NCBI GenBank assembly: GCA_018902385.1
Contig: JABSSW010000038.1
Coordinates: 186,001-250,000, forward strand
Direction of reading: 5' to 3'
Length of the DNA stretch: 64,000 nt
Source of the DNA: Physcia stellaris
Taxonomy: Eukaryota; Ascomycota; Lecanoromycetes; Caliciales; Physciaceae
A program made the position numbers and the translations under genes. The stretch's first letter is position 1. Every line of letters begins with the position of its first letter. The notes below the pieces were generated by a model. The model was not told the origin of the DNA and did not search any database. It saw only the letters and a list, made by a program, of their open reading frames with translations. Shown here piece after piece: positions 1 through 21,700 of this stretch.

Positions 1-806
1 GACTTGAGTCACTGTTCTCGTTGAGTTGGCGAGTGACTGGATTCCCTCTAGAACGATGTTGGAAGGCGAGAATGTGTATAAGTCAAAACAGTGACGACTA
101 CACTTTTGTGAAATTGACTCTTCATCAGTCGCCAGTCAGCAGAATATCTTCAATAAAGCTTAGCGATTCTTTTCATGGTGTTGGCGAATGACTGAGGTTT
201 CTCTAGAACGATGTTGAGACGCGAAAGATGTGTATATAAGCCAAAACAATGACGACTACAACTTTGACGGAATTCGACTCTTCATCAGTCGCCAATCAGC
301 ACGATATCTTCAATAAACTTCAAAGATTCCTTTCATCGTGTCGGCGAGTGGATGAGTCTCCTCTAGAACGTTGTTGAGACGCGGATGTGTATATAAGCCA
401 AAACAATGACGACTACAACTTTGATGAATTTCGACTTTCTATCAATCGCCGACCAGCACGACATCTGCAGTAAACTCTAGCGATTCTTTTCATCGTGTTG
501 GCGAGAGACTGGGCTCCGTCTAGAACCTTGTTGGAACGCGAAACTGTGTATAAGTCAAACCAGAGACGACAACTTTGACGAACTTCGACTTTCTATCATC
601 GCCAATCAGCACGATATCTTCAGTAAAGTTTACCGTTGCTTTTCATCGTGTTGGCGAGTGCTTCAACAGTGTGTAGACGAGTGTTATGTCAATTCGAATC
701 AACGGCAAAGACGTAGTGACGGCAACGAGCTTCAACAGAATCTCTAAGTCGATCGCCAATCATCGCAACATTCTTCGTCATCTTCGAACTCTATGCAAAT
801 GTACTT

Positions 807-1441
807 GGCGAGAGATCTGATTTCTTGTAGACGATGATTTGGAAAAAATAGTGACAAGCGCAGACAATCATATGACTATAATTTAGTTTCAAACTCAATC
901 GCTGGAACTACACGCCAGTAACTGCGATGCATTCAATACAGTATAGCGAGCTTTTTCAACGAGACGGCGAGAGATCTGACTCCTTGTAGGCGATGATCCG
1001 ATAAAAACATGACAAGGCAGACAATCATATGGCTATAATCTAGTTCCAAAACCAGTCGTTGAAACTACACGCCAGTAACTGCGATGCATTCAAAACAGTA
1101 TAGCGAGCTGTCTCAATCAGACGGCGAGAGATCTGGCTCTCTGTAAGCGATGATCCGATAAAAACATGACAAGACAGACAATCATATGGCTATAATCTAG
1201 TTCCAAAATCAGTCGTTGGAACTGTACGCCAGTAGCTGCAGAGCATTCAATACAGTATAGCGAGCTGTCTCAACGAGATGGCGAGAAATCTGGGTTATTG
1301 TAAACGATGATCTGGAAAAAAATATCAAAAGACAGGCAATCATATGGCTATGATCAGTCGCGAAATCAGTCGCTGAAACTGTACGCCAGTAGCTGCAGTG
1401 CATTCAATACAGCATGATGAGCTTTCTCAATGAGACGGCGA
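807..1441. repeat. Homogenised sub-block of four 157-bp units
   Basis: Units beginning at the GGCGA sites 807, 966, 1123 and 1280 are visibly close copies. Each contains 'acaatcatatggctat' or a near variant, followed by 'acgccagta' and 'gcattcaa'. Three of the four spacings are exactly 157 bp. This is local sequence homogenisation inside the larger array, as expected for unequal exchange or gene conversion among neighbouring units. The left half-site has shifted to ACGCC in all four, so the change was amplified with the block. Confidence 0.85.
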
Positions 1442-3697
1442 TGCTTTTATGGGAAATACACGACGACTTTGCAACCAAGCTTGAAAGAAGTCAGTCACCA
1501 AAACAACAAACTCTTTTCGCTTAAACAGTATCTTCGCCATTAACGTGTTCTCAGTATGTTTTCAAGACTCTGTTGCTTAAGCCGACTGGCGATTTAATCT
1601 TGAAATGAGAGCGTTCTTGTTTTTCGTCACAAGAGAGCGATGATTAGTCGAATTTCTGAATCGATTAAAAGATCTATCAGTTCTATGTACGCTCATCGCC
1701 GAACTGTGAGATATCTTTTGTACTTTTCAGCGAATCTTCTCATGCAGTCGGCGAAAGGATGCATCTTGAATAGATGATTGTCTCGATGATAGAGACGGAA
1801 GCCTCTGAAAAGTGCATTTTTACGAAAGAGACATACAAAGCGTTTCTTTCAACCTCGCCAACAACGACAATGCAATACAATGCTTCCATCACGAACTCTA
1901 AATGTGCTGGCGGAAGGATGCAACTTGAATAGATGATTGTCTCGGTAATATAGACGGAAGCTCCTGAAAAGCGCATCTTTACGAAGAAACGTACAAAGCG
2001 TTTCCTGCAACCTCGCCAATGAATGCAATGCAATACACGGTCTCCATTACGAACTTTGAATGTGCTGGCGAAGAGTGCAATCGGAATAGATGACTGTGCC
2101 GATAATATAGACGAAAGCTCCTGAAAAGCGCATTTCTACGAAAGAAACATACAAAGCGTTTCTTACAATCTCGCCAATAGCTGTAATTCAGTACAATGCT
2201 TTCATGACGGGTTTTGATTGTGCTGGCGAAGATATTTGATTGCTCGTTGTGACTGACAGTCGTGCAATTCCGTTCAGTAATAGCAAGCTGCTCAAAGTTT
2301 CAGTCTGTTATAGTTTGAACGATCGCTGAGAACTGATATAGCGTAATTTGAGACTGGCGATGTGATTAGAACAACTGGCGATGAGATTCGAGTCATGGAC
2401 GTCGAGAAAAAGCATCGGGATGATATAGAAGCGCAAAACAATGAATCACCGACAGCACACGTTGAGAACTGTTTTCATATCGCCGAATGATTTCTCTCAT
2501 TCTATTAATTCATAAGATATTGTCGCCGTTGCTTCCGACTCAATGTATGAAGATACGAAGTATTGTAAGTCGAACAGTCGTTCTAAGTATCATAGCGCTT
2601 CAAGTCTTCACAAGTCTGCATTCAGTGATTTCAGTCTCTCGCCGATGGCTCGCAAGGATTTCAGTATGTTGATTACACACTTTTCATCTCTTGTGATATT
2701 GCTGACGCTATGTGAAATCTGAACCGTGATGTTTCCGATTGAACTGAGATGTCTCTCAAAAGGAAAAATGCTATACATACATCAAAACGCATTGCAGATG
2801 ATCGCCGAGACTCGCTATCAACATTTAATGACTTGAATCTTGTTTCGGTACAAGCGACGATGACTTCGTAGTGTTGCTCGTACATCCGCTGTCCTGTATA
2901 ATGAGATGTCACTCAAAAGGAAAAATGCTATACACATATCAAAACGCATTGCAGATGATCGCCGAAACTCGTAATCAACGTTTCATGACTTGAATCTTGT
3001 TTCGATACAAGCGACGAGAGTCTTAGTGTTGCTCGAACATATGCTGTCCTGTATCAGATTGTCGATTAATATTGTTGAGATCTTATTGTTTGATCATCGT
3101 CTGGGTTTTCGCTTCGCCGAATGATGAGATAGAAAATGCTGATCTCAGCGACACATGCGAGAACGTCGGCGAGATCCGTTGCCTTCTGTAGAATCGTTAT
3201 GTTATGAGAATCGTGTTAGCTCTAATTCCCTATCATGCACATTTTCAAGTTACTTTTTCGATCTTTCCTACTCTCGCCGCTGAGTATAATTGGATTAATG
3301 AGTGATTATAAAAGGATTTTGATTGTCAGCGATAGTTGCGAGCGTCTTCAAATGGAAAATTCTTCTCGGTGAGCGCCGCGTATAGTATTACTCGATAAAC
3401 GTGAACAACGATGCAGTCATCGACATCGATCGCTTTTTCGCGAAGATCATGACACTAATAAGACTCAATTGTTTCCAATCAAGAGCGATAGCTATTTGAT
3501 TGAGTATCGAGACGAATGCTTTCGAACTTTTGAAGCTTGAACTCGTAACCAGCTGTGATAATTTCTCAAAAATATCTTCTAAATCTTCGCCGGTTAATGC
3601 AGTCGATTGATAGAATGATGACTATCATTAAACAGACAGTAGCGAGATATTCTGTTGAAAGTCGATCTGTTGAACAGACGAAGATTTGTCGGTTCGT

Positions 3698-4040
3698 CCG
3701 AAGTGACTCATGCAGCACAACATGTTTCTTTCTTGAATCTAAATCTATTAACTTCGCCGGACTCGCAGATGAGACAGAAGAGTCTCAGCGAGTATATTTG
3801 TGCATCCGGCGAGTTCGCATGACGTCTAATTGTCTCTGGCGAGAATGGAAAAAAATATGTGCTAGAGACAGCACATCATGTTTCTTTCTTGAATCGAAAT
3901 CTATTAACTTCGCCGGACTCGCAGATGAGACAGAAGAATCTCAGCGAGTATATTTGCGCATTCGGCGAGTTCGCATGACGTCTAATTGTCTCTGGCGAGA
4001 ATGGAGAGAAATACGTGCTAGAGACAGCAAAAGTTGTTGT
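3698..4040. repeat. Near-identical pair of ~156-bp array units
   Basis: Two consecutive units, anchored at the TCGCC sites 3754 and 3910, are almost identical over their whole length ('catgtttctttcttgaat' through 'tctggcgagaatgg'). They share three matched pairs of sites at 156 bp spacing: 3754/3910, 3808/3964 and 3838/3994. Because 156 is a multiple of three, an open frame of about 190 codons (3555-4139) runs through both. I regard that frame as a by-product of the duplication and not as a gene. The pair is the most recent-looking duplication in the array. Confidence 0.85.
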
Positions 4041-5779
4041 TATCAAAACGTATCACTCAACTTGAATCGTCAGTCTTCGCCGGAGAACACGATCCTGTTT
4101 TTATATATAGCTGTTGCCTTTCTATGGTCCGGCGAGTAGTTTGGAGTCGTGTGGTGAATATAAAGCACATGCTCTGAGAACGATAAAAGTGCTCGAGGAA
4201 AATTATGTGCGAGTCACGAGAGACATTCACTCGCCGTCATGACTGAAGTTTTCAATATGCGTTGAATGAATTGACTCATCATGCAGCGAGCTTCGAAGCG
4301 TCTGAAAACATTGAGAAACAATTGAAACGATAATGTCTGCTGAAACTCTACCGACTCAAGCCAATCACAATTCAAAGTCATATCTCTCGCCGACAACATG
4401 CAAGGCTTCGCTATATGTCAAAAACATCAATCCATCATGCAGCGAGCTTGGAAGTGCTTGAAAACATGAAGAAATAATTTTGACCTTAATGTCTGCTGAA
4501 CTCTATCGAATCAAGTTGATCGAAATCCAAAGCCATATCTTCTCGCCGACAACATTCAAGGCTTCGCTATATGCTAATAACTTCAATCTAGCATGCGGCG
4601 AGCCCGCAGAACTCGAAAGAATTGCAAGGAGAATGAAACGAGAATGTCTTTCTGTAAGCCTTGGTTGATGATTGACGATTGCAAAAAGACATCATGCCTC
4701 GCCAATAGCAGAAAAGCCTTTGCTATCTATCAGTAATATGGCAAATCTAGTCGGCGGACTTTGGCAAGCAAAAACAAAAGTAAAAAGATCAGTATTGGCA
4801 CTTGTATAACCGAACTTGATTTATTAAAGAAAAATGTACTACGAAACTCTACAATCACTCGCTGGAAACATGAAAGCCTCTATTTAATGTCACAGATATC
4901 GGATGTCTATTCAGCGAATCGATTATAGCAAGAATAGGAAAAAGGTAGTTTCGATGACGATTGCTTGAACCAACATCGCCGATGGAAATTGATGACTGCA
5001 AAGACTACGATCTCTCGCCGAGAGTATGCAGATGCTTCATGCACGCCATTAACATCGTCAAGCCATTCAGCGAGGTTCTAACGACGACAGTTGCTTGATT
5101 GTGATTTGCAGCTGAAAATCCCAAACAGTTGCACGCTCATGACATTACTCATTATCAAAGTCGCTCGCCTCAACCGAGAGCTTGTTTGTGTACTTCCTTA
5201 ATTACTATGTACAGAATCCTTAATGTCTTGAGCCTGATTGTTCTGTAAGCGTCCTGCATGAGCGAAATGACCCAACAGAGCAACTTTTAGAGTCTGGCGA
5301 CTTCCCCTGCCTCTGCGACAGGATTATGGAGCGGAAACCCTGCAGCGAAGATGAAAACGGCGAAAGAATCTAAAAAAGCAGAAGTAGATGGGCGGGCCAA
5401 AGAGAAGAGAGAGAAGCTAAGAAATGAAAGAAATGAATCTTTGACCTCCTATTTAAATAAAGGTCAAGCTCTTCAAGTCTCTTTCGATTTGTCAGTTCTG
5501 CATTAACATTCATGTCCAGTCTGAACGTAACAAGAAATGATATCGACAGGAATGGTCAAAGCCTCTGTTCGGCGCAAAATGATTGAAAAGAAAGTAACTA
5601 TAAGTTTTGAACTTGGAGATTGATTCTGTAGTCGATTGGTAATGCGATGGCAATGGATTGTTCTGCGATGAAGTTTTGATGGAACGGATGGGGAATTCTC
5701 AAACATTCTTTAGGAGGTGGTGGTCATTTGTAAGAGATCGGTCGAAGATATGCAGCAAGTCAAAGCCTCATTCGTCTGA

Positions 5780-6130
5780 TTGCTAGAACAAGATATTGTG
5801 CTATGGGAGTGTGAGCGATGTTTTTAGCAAGCAGTATGTTCACAGAGACCAGAACGCGCCAAACTGGAGCTGCCACTATGCCGAAACAAATTTCCAAAAC
5901 AACCCCAAGATCCAAGCCGCAGAGAAAATGATTCCTAGGCGGCGCCAACGTCGCCCAAAAGACATAGAAAGGCAGTCGAGAGGAATGCCGAAAGAGGAAG
6001 ATAGTATGTGGTCTCGGAGAGGAGGAACGGGGCTGCAGAAGCCAGAACTTGAAGAGAAGATCGTCTATATAGGCGTATCAAGCTTCAGTCACGGCAATTT
6101 CGTCTCATTGCCCCAGCACCCTGATCCAGC
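5780..6130. repeat. Diverged direct repeat, copy A (partner at ~7035-7310)
   Basis: Shares with the partner copy the blocks 'agcaagcagtatg', 'gccaaactgg' followed by 'gctgcca.tatgccg', and a downstream TATA-like core with 'aggcgt.tcaag'. Spacing between the two copies is about 1.25 kb. Indels and substitutions are frequent. Alignment was by eye only, so the borders are approximate. Confidence 0.5.
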
Positions 6131-7034
6131 CAGTCGAACTTCTTCTATTGCTGTTGTTTCTCGGCCTTTACCGCTTCGCAGTCTTCAAAAATTGAAGTTT
6201 GCTCACTTCCTCCACTCTCTGGATCTGTCGCCTAGATATTGGGAATTTGTTGAGGCTTCGAGGCGATCAAATAACGACTTGAATAGTCCCCGAACGCTAG
6301 CAGAGCTCAATAACAACAGATAGATTGATATAATTTCTCTATCTCCTTGCTTTTTCTTATTACCTGATCTCCTTGATTCATCAGAGCTCAGATTGTCTTA
6401 TACGTACTCTGTTTTCAAGAGACAGAGCGACTAATGCCCCTGAAGGCTTTTGTATAGAGACTCTCGTGGTTGAATCGGTCAGCGAGCACCGTCTGTGCAA
6501 GAAACATCCACAACAAAAGCCCCGCTGAGCAGTAGCATCGCCGACCAACTCCCTACCTACGCGGACGGGCTATGGATTTGATATGTACACGAGGAAGCGA
6601 GTCGACGGGAACAAAAACTTCTGAGAAATGAGAAACAGAAAAGAAGAAAACAATGAGCGCCGGCCTGCCATATAACGAGCAGAAGGTCCGAGCGTTTTCT
6701 CTGGCGATTGAGCATCCATGTGCCTTTTCTGCATCAGTATCCGTGTCTGCAGGCCGACTATAATACTGCTATACAAAAGTGCAAATAGGATGACGTTTTG
6801 AGCAATGGGGACACGAAGAAGCAAATCGAAAAACTTTCCCCAATGGAGTACGCAGCAATCCTGTTCATCGAAGAAAGGGGCGAAAGAGGAATATGCGGCA
6901 GAAGCAGCATGATAGAAGAGATAGACCATGAGAATCATGTGTAACATTAGGAAATTGTCTTCCGGATAAAACAATTGAGTTAATTATATAGAAATCGGAA
7001 TGCGATTGGAATCACATTTGCCTGATCGCTAGTA

Positions 7035-18798: not shown

Positions 18799-21700
18799 CT
18801 AAGATGTTTTGCCCTCGCCTGGATCATCCTCCATTTCCTCATCCCAATCCTGGTTGCTCTTGACAAAGTCGGCCAGTGAGTACTGATTGGGTCCATCCTT
18901 CCCCTTGTCCTGCTGCTTCCGGGCCGCGGTACTCGTCCTCTCAAGCTTCCTCTTCTCAGCCTCAACCTGTCAGCTCTTGTCCGGGACTTGAAGTGGCGGT
19001 GCTATCTTCCGCTAAGGTTGCTGGGTTACTGTTTCGGCGGTCCTTCCGATTCGCGACCGGCTCTCTTCGTCACGTAGAGGAAGTAATCCTTCTCAGTGCG
19101 CCGCCGATTCTCTTCGTACTTGGTCCTCGCTTCGCCCTGTTGCTGACGTTCCGCTATAGCGTCAGGATGTGTGTCGGGGAATTCAGCACGCTCGTGGAGG
19201 ATCCCACGCTGTACAGCGTCTCTGATGAACGCAGCGACAGCAACCTTTTCCTTGCCACCTACGACTCTACTGCAACGGATCATCGTGGCTGCCTGACAGA
19301 TGATTACACTAGCGTCTCGACCCCGTGTGATGGCGGCATTAAGACGTTGGGGACTCTTCACGTGAGCTGTTGCCATGCCGAACTTCATCCTCCCTGGTTG
19401 GTCGAAAGTCTGTGACTGCATCTCCTCGTCTATCACAGCCTCAACGTCCTTGTGGCCCGTCTTCTCGTCGCCGACGACTAGGTCTGAGATAACATAAGGG
19501 CTTTCCTTGCCTTTAAAAGCATCGACTGTGCTGACTTCGCGGCATGGTTTGTGAATCTTTTTGCCATTTGCCAACTCCACGAACTTGATCTCGTAGCCGA
19601 CAAGTCCTTTCTGTCCTGCGTACCAAACCAAGACAGCGATATCCTTGGGATCCACACCTTTCTCGAGGGCCAGACGCAATTCATCTCGGATAGCTTCGAC
19701 ATGGGCGTAGTTGAGCAACGAGGTTCCTCCAGCCTCGATCCGTGAACAGCTCAAAGGTACGTCGACCACTCGAACGCATGAGCCTTTACCGTTTGGACCC
19801 TTGATGCCAAAGTCCAAAGATATAGCCCTAGCAGCCCTTCGAATGGCATTGTCGACGAGGGTGCAAGGATGGTTCATCATCGTCCCGTCGTAGAACTGTC
19901 TATTTGGGAAATCCGCTATCTCCGGGTTCATGCGGTATTGGACGTTGAGAAAATTGAAGGAATTTTTCTTATCGACCCAGTTTGCAAGCATAGATATCCC
20001 TGCAGAGTTCAACATCTCATTGAACATCGCAGCGAGAAGCGTTGGAGGCAGCTGCCGTGGGTCTCCGAAACCGAATAGCGCAATCAAGGAGGGAAAGGCC
20101 ATGAGTACTACCAGCAGGTCTGCTATGATGATTGTACCCGCCTCCTCATTTACGGCCACCGAGGGTTTCCAACCTGCTTTAGCGACGGTAACGGCATTCT
20201 GAGGCGTCGTAAAGACCAGCCACGAGTCGTCATAGACGCGTTCCATCATTTGTGCAGTAAGGTCTTCGAATGCCTTGCGTTGTTTCTTCGATACACGACC
20301 CAAGTTGTGCGCGTAGTACTCCCTATGTCTCATGTACAATGCCGAAGGGTTTCGAGCCTCGGCAGATTCTACCTGCTGCATGAAAGAAGCAAGGCCCGCT
20401 GGATCTGATTTGTAAAGTTCAGTCGCTGCAGCGACTTCTGCTTGGTACGAGGCTTGGGCAGCCCTCTCATCCTCTTTGACCAATTCGAAGATACGGTAGC
20501 CCATCTCGGCTTCCGCAACGACCGTGGCGCCGGACCTCTTTCGTTGATCCACCTTCTGAGCCATTTCCCAAGTCTGTTCATACAGCTTCTCCTTCTCGAA
20601 AAAGATTTCCCATTCGTTGGTGGTTTCGGCCTCCTCCATTGCGGCTGCGACGGTTGGATCCATCTGTTTTTCGGCGTCCTCGTCCACTGGAAGTTGAGCG
20701 ATGTCTTTGGGGTCCATTGCTTCGTACTGTAACTGCCATCCGGATCCACGTTTGACAGTACTACGAAATAAGACCTTGCTAGTCTCAGCCCGGACGATTT
20801 TCATGCCTTTGCAGCTAGCTGGTCGATTGTAGGCTGCGATGTTGAGGAGGTTGTCCAACACGTCGTTGTTCCCAGCGAAGACGACAACTTTGTGACCGAC
20901 CAAGAGAAGCCCCCACAAGAGCATGACAATGGTCATCGACTTCCCTGTGCCAGGAGGTCCTTGTGTCATGCACAAGCCCCAATGTAACCAAGCAGCCATC
21001 CGCAGAACATAAGTCTGACGTTCGTTGTCGTTCTTCCTCATGCAGTCCTTGACATACTCTTCGTACAGCCGTTCGTTATCCTTCTTTTCCATCTCGTCCG
21101 TCCCCGGTGGTCCTTGTGCGAGATTGATATACTCGCTTGCCTCTGCTGCTGGAAGCGGCATCTTGGACATCAGCGCTTGCTTCAGGAATCGCACCAGCGG
21201 CCGGTCTGATTCCATAAAAGCTTCGATAGCCTTAAGTCCCTGTTTCGCCATCTTATCGTTGACTTTGACGGTCAAGAAACAGCGATAAAGCTCGGGGTTG
21301 TCGTATGCCTTGAATACCTGATGGGGCCTCTTCGCTACGGCATCAAAAGGCTTTTTCAGCATGACACAGAAATGGGTCCGCGTCAATTTCAAGAACTCAG
21401 GATCAGGTCGAACGACCTCGCCGTACCAGGCATTGTTGTCTTTGGCGGAAGCGGCGCCCCGATTGTCCCATTCAAGTTCCACCTTCAATCCCTCTTGTGG
21501 AGGAGCATCGGCCTTGTCCTTGATGGACATTCGAATGTACGCGAAATATGTTTCGGCGAACTGACTGTTCCACAGTCATTTCGAGCTGTTCCAGATGACG
21601 TATCTTAAAGGTGTTTCCTTTGGTCAAAAATGCACCTAACTTCAATCTTTGGGCGTGCATCTGTTGCGCCTGAACAGTGTGAAACTCTCGAACGGTGGTC

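Follow-up and report, generated by a model that had tools for sequence, protein, structure and literature searches.

The left end of a 64,000-nucleotide stretch of Physcia stellaris DNA (contig JABSSW010000038.1, here C38, positions 186001 to 250000; the whole stretch is called the window) is occupied by a satellite array of 32 units of about 157 bp, in which two short inverted half-sites are held at an exact spacing while the sequence between them drifts. A second array with the same geometry lies on another contig, C36, of this 44-Mb genome (147 contigs), the one genome examined. We consider it fairly likely that the arrays are tandem bipartite sites for a putative dimeric or bridged-pair sequence-specific DNA-binding protein, which probably nucleates special chromatin. 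Each unit would offer TCGC(C/T)(G/A) and its reverse complement with centers 54 bp, or about five helical turns, apart, and one protein, either as a dimer or as two bridged copies, would read the pair.

A sequence-only reading of the window had described, in 30 of 32 units, half-sites of the types TCGCY and RRCGR at an exact distance of 54 bp, and a recount confirmed this. With the pentamers of that reading, a search of positions 1 to 5200 gave 30 exact pairs, whose left pentamers start between 129 and 5015. Other spacings from 45 to 64 bp gave 0 to 5 pairs each in the array, and the remaining ~59 kb of the window held only 2 pairs at 54; spacing 33, with 12 pairs in the window array, reflects a third site (see below). 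Shuffled sequence did not give exact pairs as often: 500 dinucleotide shuffles of the array never held more than 2 pairs at 54 and, over all spacings from 10 to 120, never more than 4. The observed numbers at 54 are 31 in C38 (with one unit left of the window included) and 23 in C36.

The second array was found by a DNA search with window positions 1441 to 5200, which matched three stretches in C36:62915-63805 at 76 to 81% identity. When 60 kb around the matches was opened, an array of about 4 kb emerged with 26 units, 23 of which have an exact 54-bp pair. Two of the three exceptional units keep the spacing with one base changed (TCGTC..AGCGA and CCGCC..GGCGA), and the third has no recognizable pair. 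Over both arrays (59 units), 54 exact pairs were thus counted with the original pentamers, plus these 2. The observed geometry stands and is stronger than first stated.

It had also been claimed that insertions and deletions are tolerated outside the pair and not inside it. We compared 16 neighboring unit pairs with a core ungapped identity of at least 0.65 and a related spacer; five more pairs, with a spacer identity of just 0.61 to 0.64, were left out. Differences numbered 2/160 in the half-sites, 151/784 (19%) in the interior, and 280/1536 (18%) in the spacer (Fisher P = 4e-11 for half-sites versus interior). Gaps were confined to the spacer (25, against 0 in the 49-bp interior), and the binomial chance of 0 out of 25 is 4e-5, with the caveat that the core filter itself disfavors core gaps. 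In a second set of 24 pairs, picked by spacer homology alone, 17 reached an ungapped identity of 0.5 or more in the core, and these contained 29 spacer gaps and no core gap. All 27 core gaps fell in the remaining 7 pairs, whose cores are unrelated (20 to 45% identity) and uninformative on insertions and deletions. The spacers do carry gaps, so the units are not simply free of length changes, and the claim holds in both sets. With the ends constrained, the interior free, indels limited to the spacer, and a second array that behaves alike, the proposal that selection acts on the geometry of an inverted half-site pair is well supported.

A cluster-weighted profile was built from 56 units in 23 clusters, namely, 33 from C38 (two of them without a right half-site) and 23 of the 26 from C36 (three dropped). 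Its 12 half-site columns carry 0.76 to 2.35 bits, whereas interior columns 6 to 52 reach at most 0.61. Columns 0 to 5 read T, C, G, C, C/T, and G/A and are mirrored at columns 53 to 58, and the half-site is therefore better written TCGC(C/T)(G/A) than as a pentamer. As pentamers, the left half-sites are TCGCC (40 units), TCGCT (12), and ACGCC (4), and the right positions are GGCGA (34), AGCGA (16), GGCGG (2), GACGA (2), TCCGA (1), and GTGAT (1). A matrix score of at least 14 bits is reached by 53 of the 56 units, which are the same units that built the matrix; elsewhere in the genome, 312.5 kb scanned on the given strand contained 5 such sites. Two mirrored half-sites at a fixed spacing are under constraint.

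The interior consensus is itself dyad-symmetric about the center of the half-sites (A15/T43, T21/A37, and T25/A33), with a dyad score of 0.75 against 0.07 ± 0.21 for 20,000 random pairings (P = 0.0003); the next best of 12 centers scored 0.51. A third site, RGCGA, is present at +33 in 19 of the 56 units, from 7 of the 23 clusters, whereas just 2 units have TCGCY at +21, the mirror position. Because the third site is one-sided, the units have polarity. The distances of 54, 33, and 21 bp correspond arithmetically to about five, three, and two helical turns. A third of the units would thus offer an extra site that follows the first half-site by about three turns and precedes the last by two, and all sites of a unit would lie on approximately one face of the helix. 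Helical phasing by unit length was uninformative, with a resultant of 0.24 to 0.28 at every period tried from 10.2 to 11.

Symmetry of this kind could also arise if the array were transcribed and the half-sites formed the closing stem of a hairpin repeated along a long noncoding RNA. The half-sites are mutually reverse complementary, and when 10 of the 32 window units were folded, several formed the closing stem. The half-sites alone match slightly more often than mismatched halves (0.814 versus 0.776, sd 0.022; 1.7 sd), and columns 5 and 53 pair above expectation (P = 0.007 with G-T, that is, G-U, counted). The interior halves, however, show no covariation over the 56 units (pairing of 0.283 versus 0.298 for mismatched halves). 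In 26 of the 32 window units, pairing over all 29 column pairs equals shuffled pairing (51.2% versus 51.5%), and the covariation score was 0.187 against 0.176 ± 0.015, with 118 of 500 shuffles as high, so that a shared helix was not detected. A z score below -2 was obtained for only 2 of the 10 folded units, and in one of these the half-site stem is missing; a loop of 49 unstructured bases would leave its exact length unexplained. No Rfam family reached its cutoff in window positions 1 to 7000; the sole match up to an E value of 1, SNORD88 (E = 0.67, 21 bits against a cutoff of 46), was taken as chance. We regard the RNA explanation as unlikely. Dyad symmetry without covariation is more readily explained by a DNA dyad than by an RNA stem.

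The sequence-only reading had offered, as alternatives, a dimeric or paired protein and a nucleosome-phasing element. The first is the best fit to the geometry; the second was not supported. Under phasing, no dedicated protein would be needed, and the sequence itself would place a nucleosome on each ~157-bp unit. Unit length varies little (157.3 bp, sd 3.8, in 51 units), and about 157 bp is close to fungal nucleosome repeat lengths. The 55 bp to the left of the core show their strongest AA/TT/TA periodicity at 9.5 to 10 bp, a value that carries no significance figure. No A/T period of 10 to 11 bp is prominent, however, inside the core or in the 50 bp to its right, the spacers vary from 87 to 108 bp over both arrays, and a nucleosome preference does not demand near-invariant five-base G+C motifs. 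Phasing by sequence alone is thus an improbable account, on a par with the transcribed hairpin.

The half-sites also stand out against the mutational background of this genome. Five AT-rich repeat blocks (24 to 29% G+C), at C36:1-8000, C36:496110-506109, C38:1-10000, C38:491220-501219, and C38:122-131 kb, have almost no CC or GG (0.00 to 0.03 of expectation), reduced AG/CT (0.02 to 0.36), and abundant CG (3.1 to 4.1). Mutation context was sampled from 12 alignments of repeat copies (80 to 98% identical and at least 500 bp long; the copies overlap and are not independent). Where a C preceded a T, the other copy carried T in place of that C 79% of the time (1296/1637); the share was 78% before C (7/9), 9% before A, and 6% before G. 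We read these contexts as a C-to-T process resembling repeat-induced point mutation (RIP), with CpT and CpC as apparent targets and CpA and CpG largely spared. Classical RIP targets CpA.

In passages of four papers, fungal RIP signatures are given as CpA, CpT, and CpG (PMC4352252, PMC2621366, PMC6180176, and PMC4938642). For Botrytis, Sclerotinia, and Magnaporthe, CpT signatures are described there alongside CpA (PMC4352252), and Stagonospora nodorum is described as depleted in CpC while also losing CpA (PMC2621366); those passages describe no genome in which CpT and CpC are mutated and CpA is spared. C5 DNA methyltransferase domains (PF00145) were found at three loci (C6:791557-792528, C3:340323-341498, and C5:498855-499792), which are candidates for the RIP-like enzyme and for a DIM-2-like enzyme.

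Both arrays bear a milder mark. Outside the half-sites, CC/GG is at 0.24 to 0.43 of expectation, without loss of CT/AG; the intergenic DNA that flanks the arrays stands at 0.79 to 0.84 and genic DNA at 0.95. In a sample of 420 one-kilobase windows, all seven of those poorest in CC/GG come from the arrays, and C36:70-75.5 kb is also low. By pentamer counts, CC or GG is intact in 80 of 112 half-sites (left, 44/56; right, 36/56) while the surroundings have lost most of theirs, which suggests that the half-sites are kept, or shielded, against the mutator. Next to the C36 array, the segment C36:70000-76000 has 0.37 to 0.46 G+C and CC/GG at 0.39 to 0.61, without 54-bp pairs, and contains a single open frame of at least 150 codons (74927-75409).

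These data bear on the possibility that the satellite has no function and that its half-sites are conserved merely by recent spread or gene conversion. Blocks are homogenized locally, as in any satellite, and block edges often fall at half-sites. Between clusters of the C38 array, however, interior identity averages 0.32, near chance, so the cores are not homogenized by conversion, yet half-sites and spacing are kept; CC and GG, moreover, persist in the half-sites and are mostly lost around them. A functionless satellite therefore appears improbable, if slightly less so than the two accounts above.

The local blocks show how the arrays may renew themselves. Units stand head to tail and neighbors are more alike, as seen in self-BLAST blocks and in TRF rows with 81 to 95% matches (25-660, 807-1441, 1768-2232, 3713-4029, and 4277-4603), as expected of a satellite. 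Six duplicated blocks, all on the forward strand, were delimited in the window. Block A (25..658) starts and ends at a right half-site, block B (807..1441) runs from the first base to the last base of right half-sites, and block C (1750..2232) starts at the first base of one and ends 3 bases past another. Block F (4277..4603) begins 8 bases ahead of one right half-site and stops 2 bases past another. Blocks D (2745..3054, with GACGA as right half-sites) and E (3713..4029) end in the spacer. The copies of block E are 95% identical, and the block is also present in the C36 array; the core at 3754..3812, with a +33 site at 3787, lies within it, and the better matches show 77 to 81% identity over ~320 to 330 bp.

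In a self-comparison of C38, with positions counted from the first base of the right half-site, the starts of blocks A, B, C, and F fall at -3, 0, 0, and -8 and their ends at +4 to +7. Of the four C36 blocks, two approach a right half-site with one end and two with neither. Binomial probabilities for the 10 blocks are 0.011 for starts and 0.0013 for ends, with limits that were set post hoc and alignments that tend to extend to a shared half-site. The simple reading of the block edges would be exchange or slippage at the right half-site. Because the half-site is almost the sole sequence common to all units, it could provide the short homology for exchange, and the arrays would renew through local duplication.

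Genome-wide scans point to two such loci. A search with the C36 array matched just two things, the array on C38 and a short dispersed element distinct from it; a 25-base piece, with up to three mismatches allowed, occurred at seven places (two in C38 and five in C36), all inside the arrays. The strict pattern AGCGA-N15-YGGCGA, which corresponds to the +33/+54 submotif, was found at 90 places in the whole genome, compared with 43 for a reversed control, and it clusters only at C36:62.2-64.4 kb (6) and C38:186.2-190.6 kb (11). Six of the 73 strict matches outside both arrays were opened, and none lies in an array. This pattern catches 11 of the 33 C38 units (9 by the +33 site and 2 by the mirror) and 6 of the 26 C36 units. 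Because it catches so few, and arrays without the +33 site escape it, other arrays may exist. A looser pattern occurred at 185 places (control, 140), and the 100 of these that were listed (C1 to C32) contain one further cluster, at C11:456001-458500. It proved to be a long coding repeat, rich in Ser and Pro, part of which has a period of 54 bp, and was taken as unrelated. The dispersed element lies at the edge of the C36 array (C36:65525-65627) and recurs at 12 more places with 72 to 86% identity, two of which match on both strands; it is probably a small inverted-repeat transposon resembling miniature inverted-repeat transposable elements.

The same scans bear on the roles first proposed for the window array, as centromeric or subtelomeric chromatin reminiscent of CENP-B-box satellites. 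A centromere or kinetochore platform of this kind would fit a kilobases-long tandem satellite with protein-like sites and units of about nucleosome length. However, two submotif clusters in 44 Mb would be too few for one per chromosome (with arrays lacking the +33 site escaping the scan), and both arrays lie in gene-bearing DNA of ordinary composition, with large AT-rich blocks elsewhere. The CENP-B box is a contiguous 17-bp site in some units of alpha satellite and its analogues. Those satellites share with the present arrays tandem units of near-nucleosome length in which a short protein-binding motif is kept while the rest drifts. Here, in contrast, mirrored half-sites stand 54 bp apart and just two short arrays were found; the profile has two conserved 6-bp blocks and no contiguous conserved 17-bp stretch, although the literal box was not scanned for. 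We therefore judge a centromeric role very unlikely, well below the other alternatives. The subtelomeric proposal was not supported either, as the window array has open frames on both sides and 186 kb of the 501-kb contig separate it from the closer end. The C36 array is 61 kb from a contig end. No doubled TTAGGG was found in the AT-rich terminal 10 kb at both ends of C36 and C38, and these contig ends are therefore not demonstrated to be chromosome ends.

Within the window, the array spans positions 1 to 5073 on the forward strand. Its onset lies at about -27, left of the window, where a unit with TCGCT..GGCGA at C38:185974 brings the total to 33; still farther left, C38:185820 may hold one decayed unit (13.7 bits). 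With its end at C38:191073, the array forms a 5.1-kb island. The left half-sites of units 1 to 16 start at 129, 289, 446, 599, 753, 912, 1069, 1226, 1383, 1534, 1696, 1855, 2013, 2171, 2323, and 2480, and those of units 17 to 32 at 2639, 2802, 2959, 3114, 3274, 3430, 3587, 3754, 3910, 4077, 4231, 4387, 4543, 4699, 4859, and 5015. Unit lengths in C38 range from 151 to 167 bp (mean, 157.5; sd, 3.5). The 59-bp core at 129..187 is representative, with TCGCC at 129-133, AGCGA as the third site at +33 (162-166), and GGCGA at 183-187. Two units, with cores at 2480..2538 and 2639..2697, have a left half-site and, at the right position, TCCGA and GTGAT, respectively; no RRCGR pentamer occurs in either from -20 to +120 of the left pentamer. 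A coding array was rejected, as the sole listed open reading frame of at least 150 amino acids inside it (3555-4139) crosses repeats and most unit lengths are not divisible by 3.

The kilobases flanking the C38 array mostly have 0.45 to 0.53 G+C. Long open frames extend on its left as far as C38:184306, and on its right a 178-codon open frame at C38:191787-192320 is followed by longer frames from 195.9 kb. Farther into the window, an 834-amino-acid open frame on the reverse strand (19026-21530) has AAA_11/AAA_12 domains and is helicase-like. The two arrays share no flanking genes in a BLASTP comparison (E values up to 1e-3) of 49 frames from C38:166-211 kb with 69 from C36:30-90 kb, all of at least 120 amino acids.

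Some known systems resemble the arrays in part. In iteron and dyad-symmetry arrays such as oriP of Epstein-Barr virus, rows of mirrored sites at a fixed helical spacing are bound by a dimeric protein. Mirrored sites and fixed helical spacing are common to both, and a 21-bp step occurs here too; here, however, 54 bp is fixed inside ~157-bp units of a fungal chromosome. DXZ4 with CTCF is a macrosatellite/insulator array with one protein site per unit. Like DXZ4, the present arrays occupy one or a few loci per genome, with one protein module per unit and a probably architectural role, but their units are 157 bp instead of kilobases, the site is bipartite, and the protein is putative. Among open papers on satellites, centromeres, and half-sites in filamentous fungi, the titles and abstract openings held nothing that we recognized as such an array.

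Several points weigh against a DNA-binding dimer. (i) The one-sided +33 site makes the unit something other than a pure dyad, and its remains may feed part of the symmetry score. (ii) The slight matching excess of the half-sites, with that of column pair 5/53, leaves some room for the RNA reading. (iii) A Pfam scan of 10 neighboring open frames revealed no evident sequence-specific DNA-binding protein. (iv) All evidence comes from one genome. Bipartite sites for a dimeric or bridged protein nonetheless remain our favored reading, in which about 25 to 33 sites in a row would nucleate special chromatin at both loci, as a silencer, boundary, pairing, or replication locus. A more specific picture, which we advance tentatively, is that of two platforms of ~25 to 33 sites for a putative dimeric protein that would measure a rigid distance of five turns, with an additional site at three turns as an option, making the arrays a spacing-defined chromatin organizer whose half-sites persist while a RIP-like mutator erodes the remainder of each unit.

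Satellites are usually compared by sequence. In P. stellaris, spacing is fixed and sequence is nearly free, in two separate arrays. If a protein reads this spacing, the 59-bp core and variants of its spacer would provide a handle on a new fungal chromatin protein, and the arrays would be an example of a repeat that retains function under a repeat-directed mutator.

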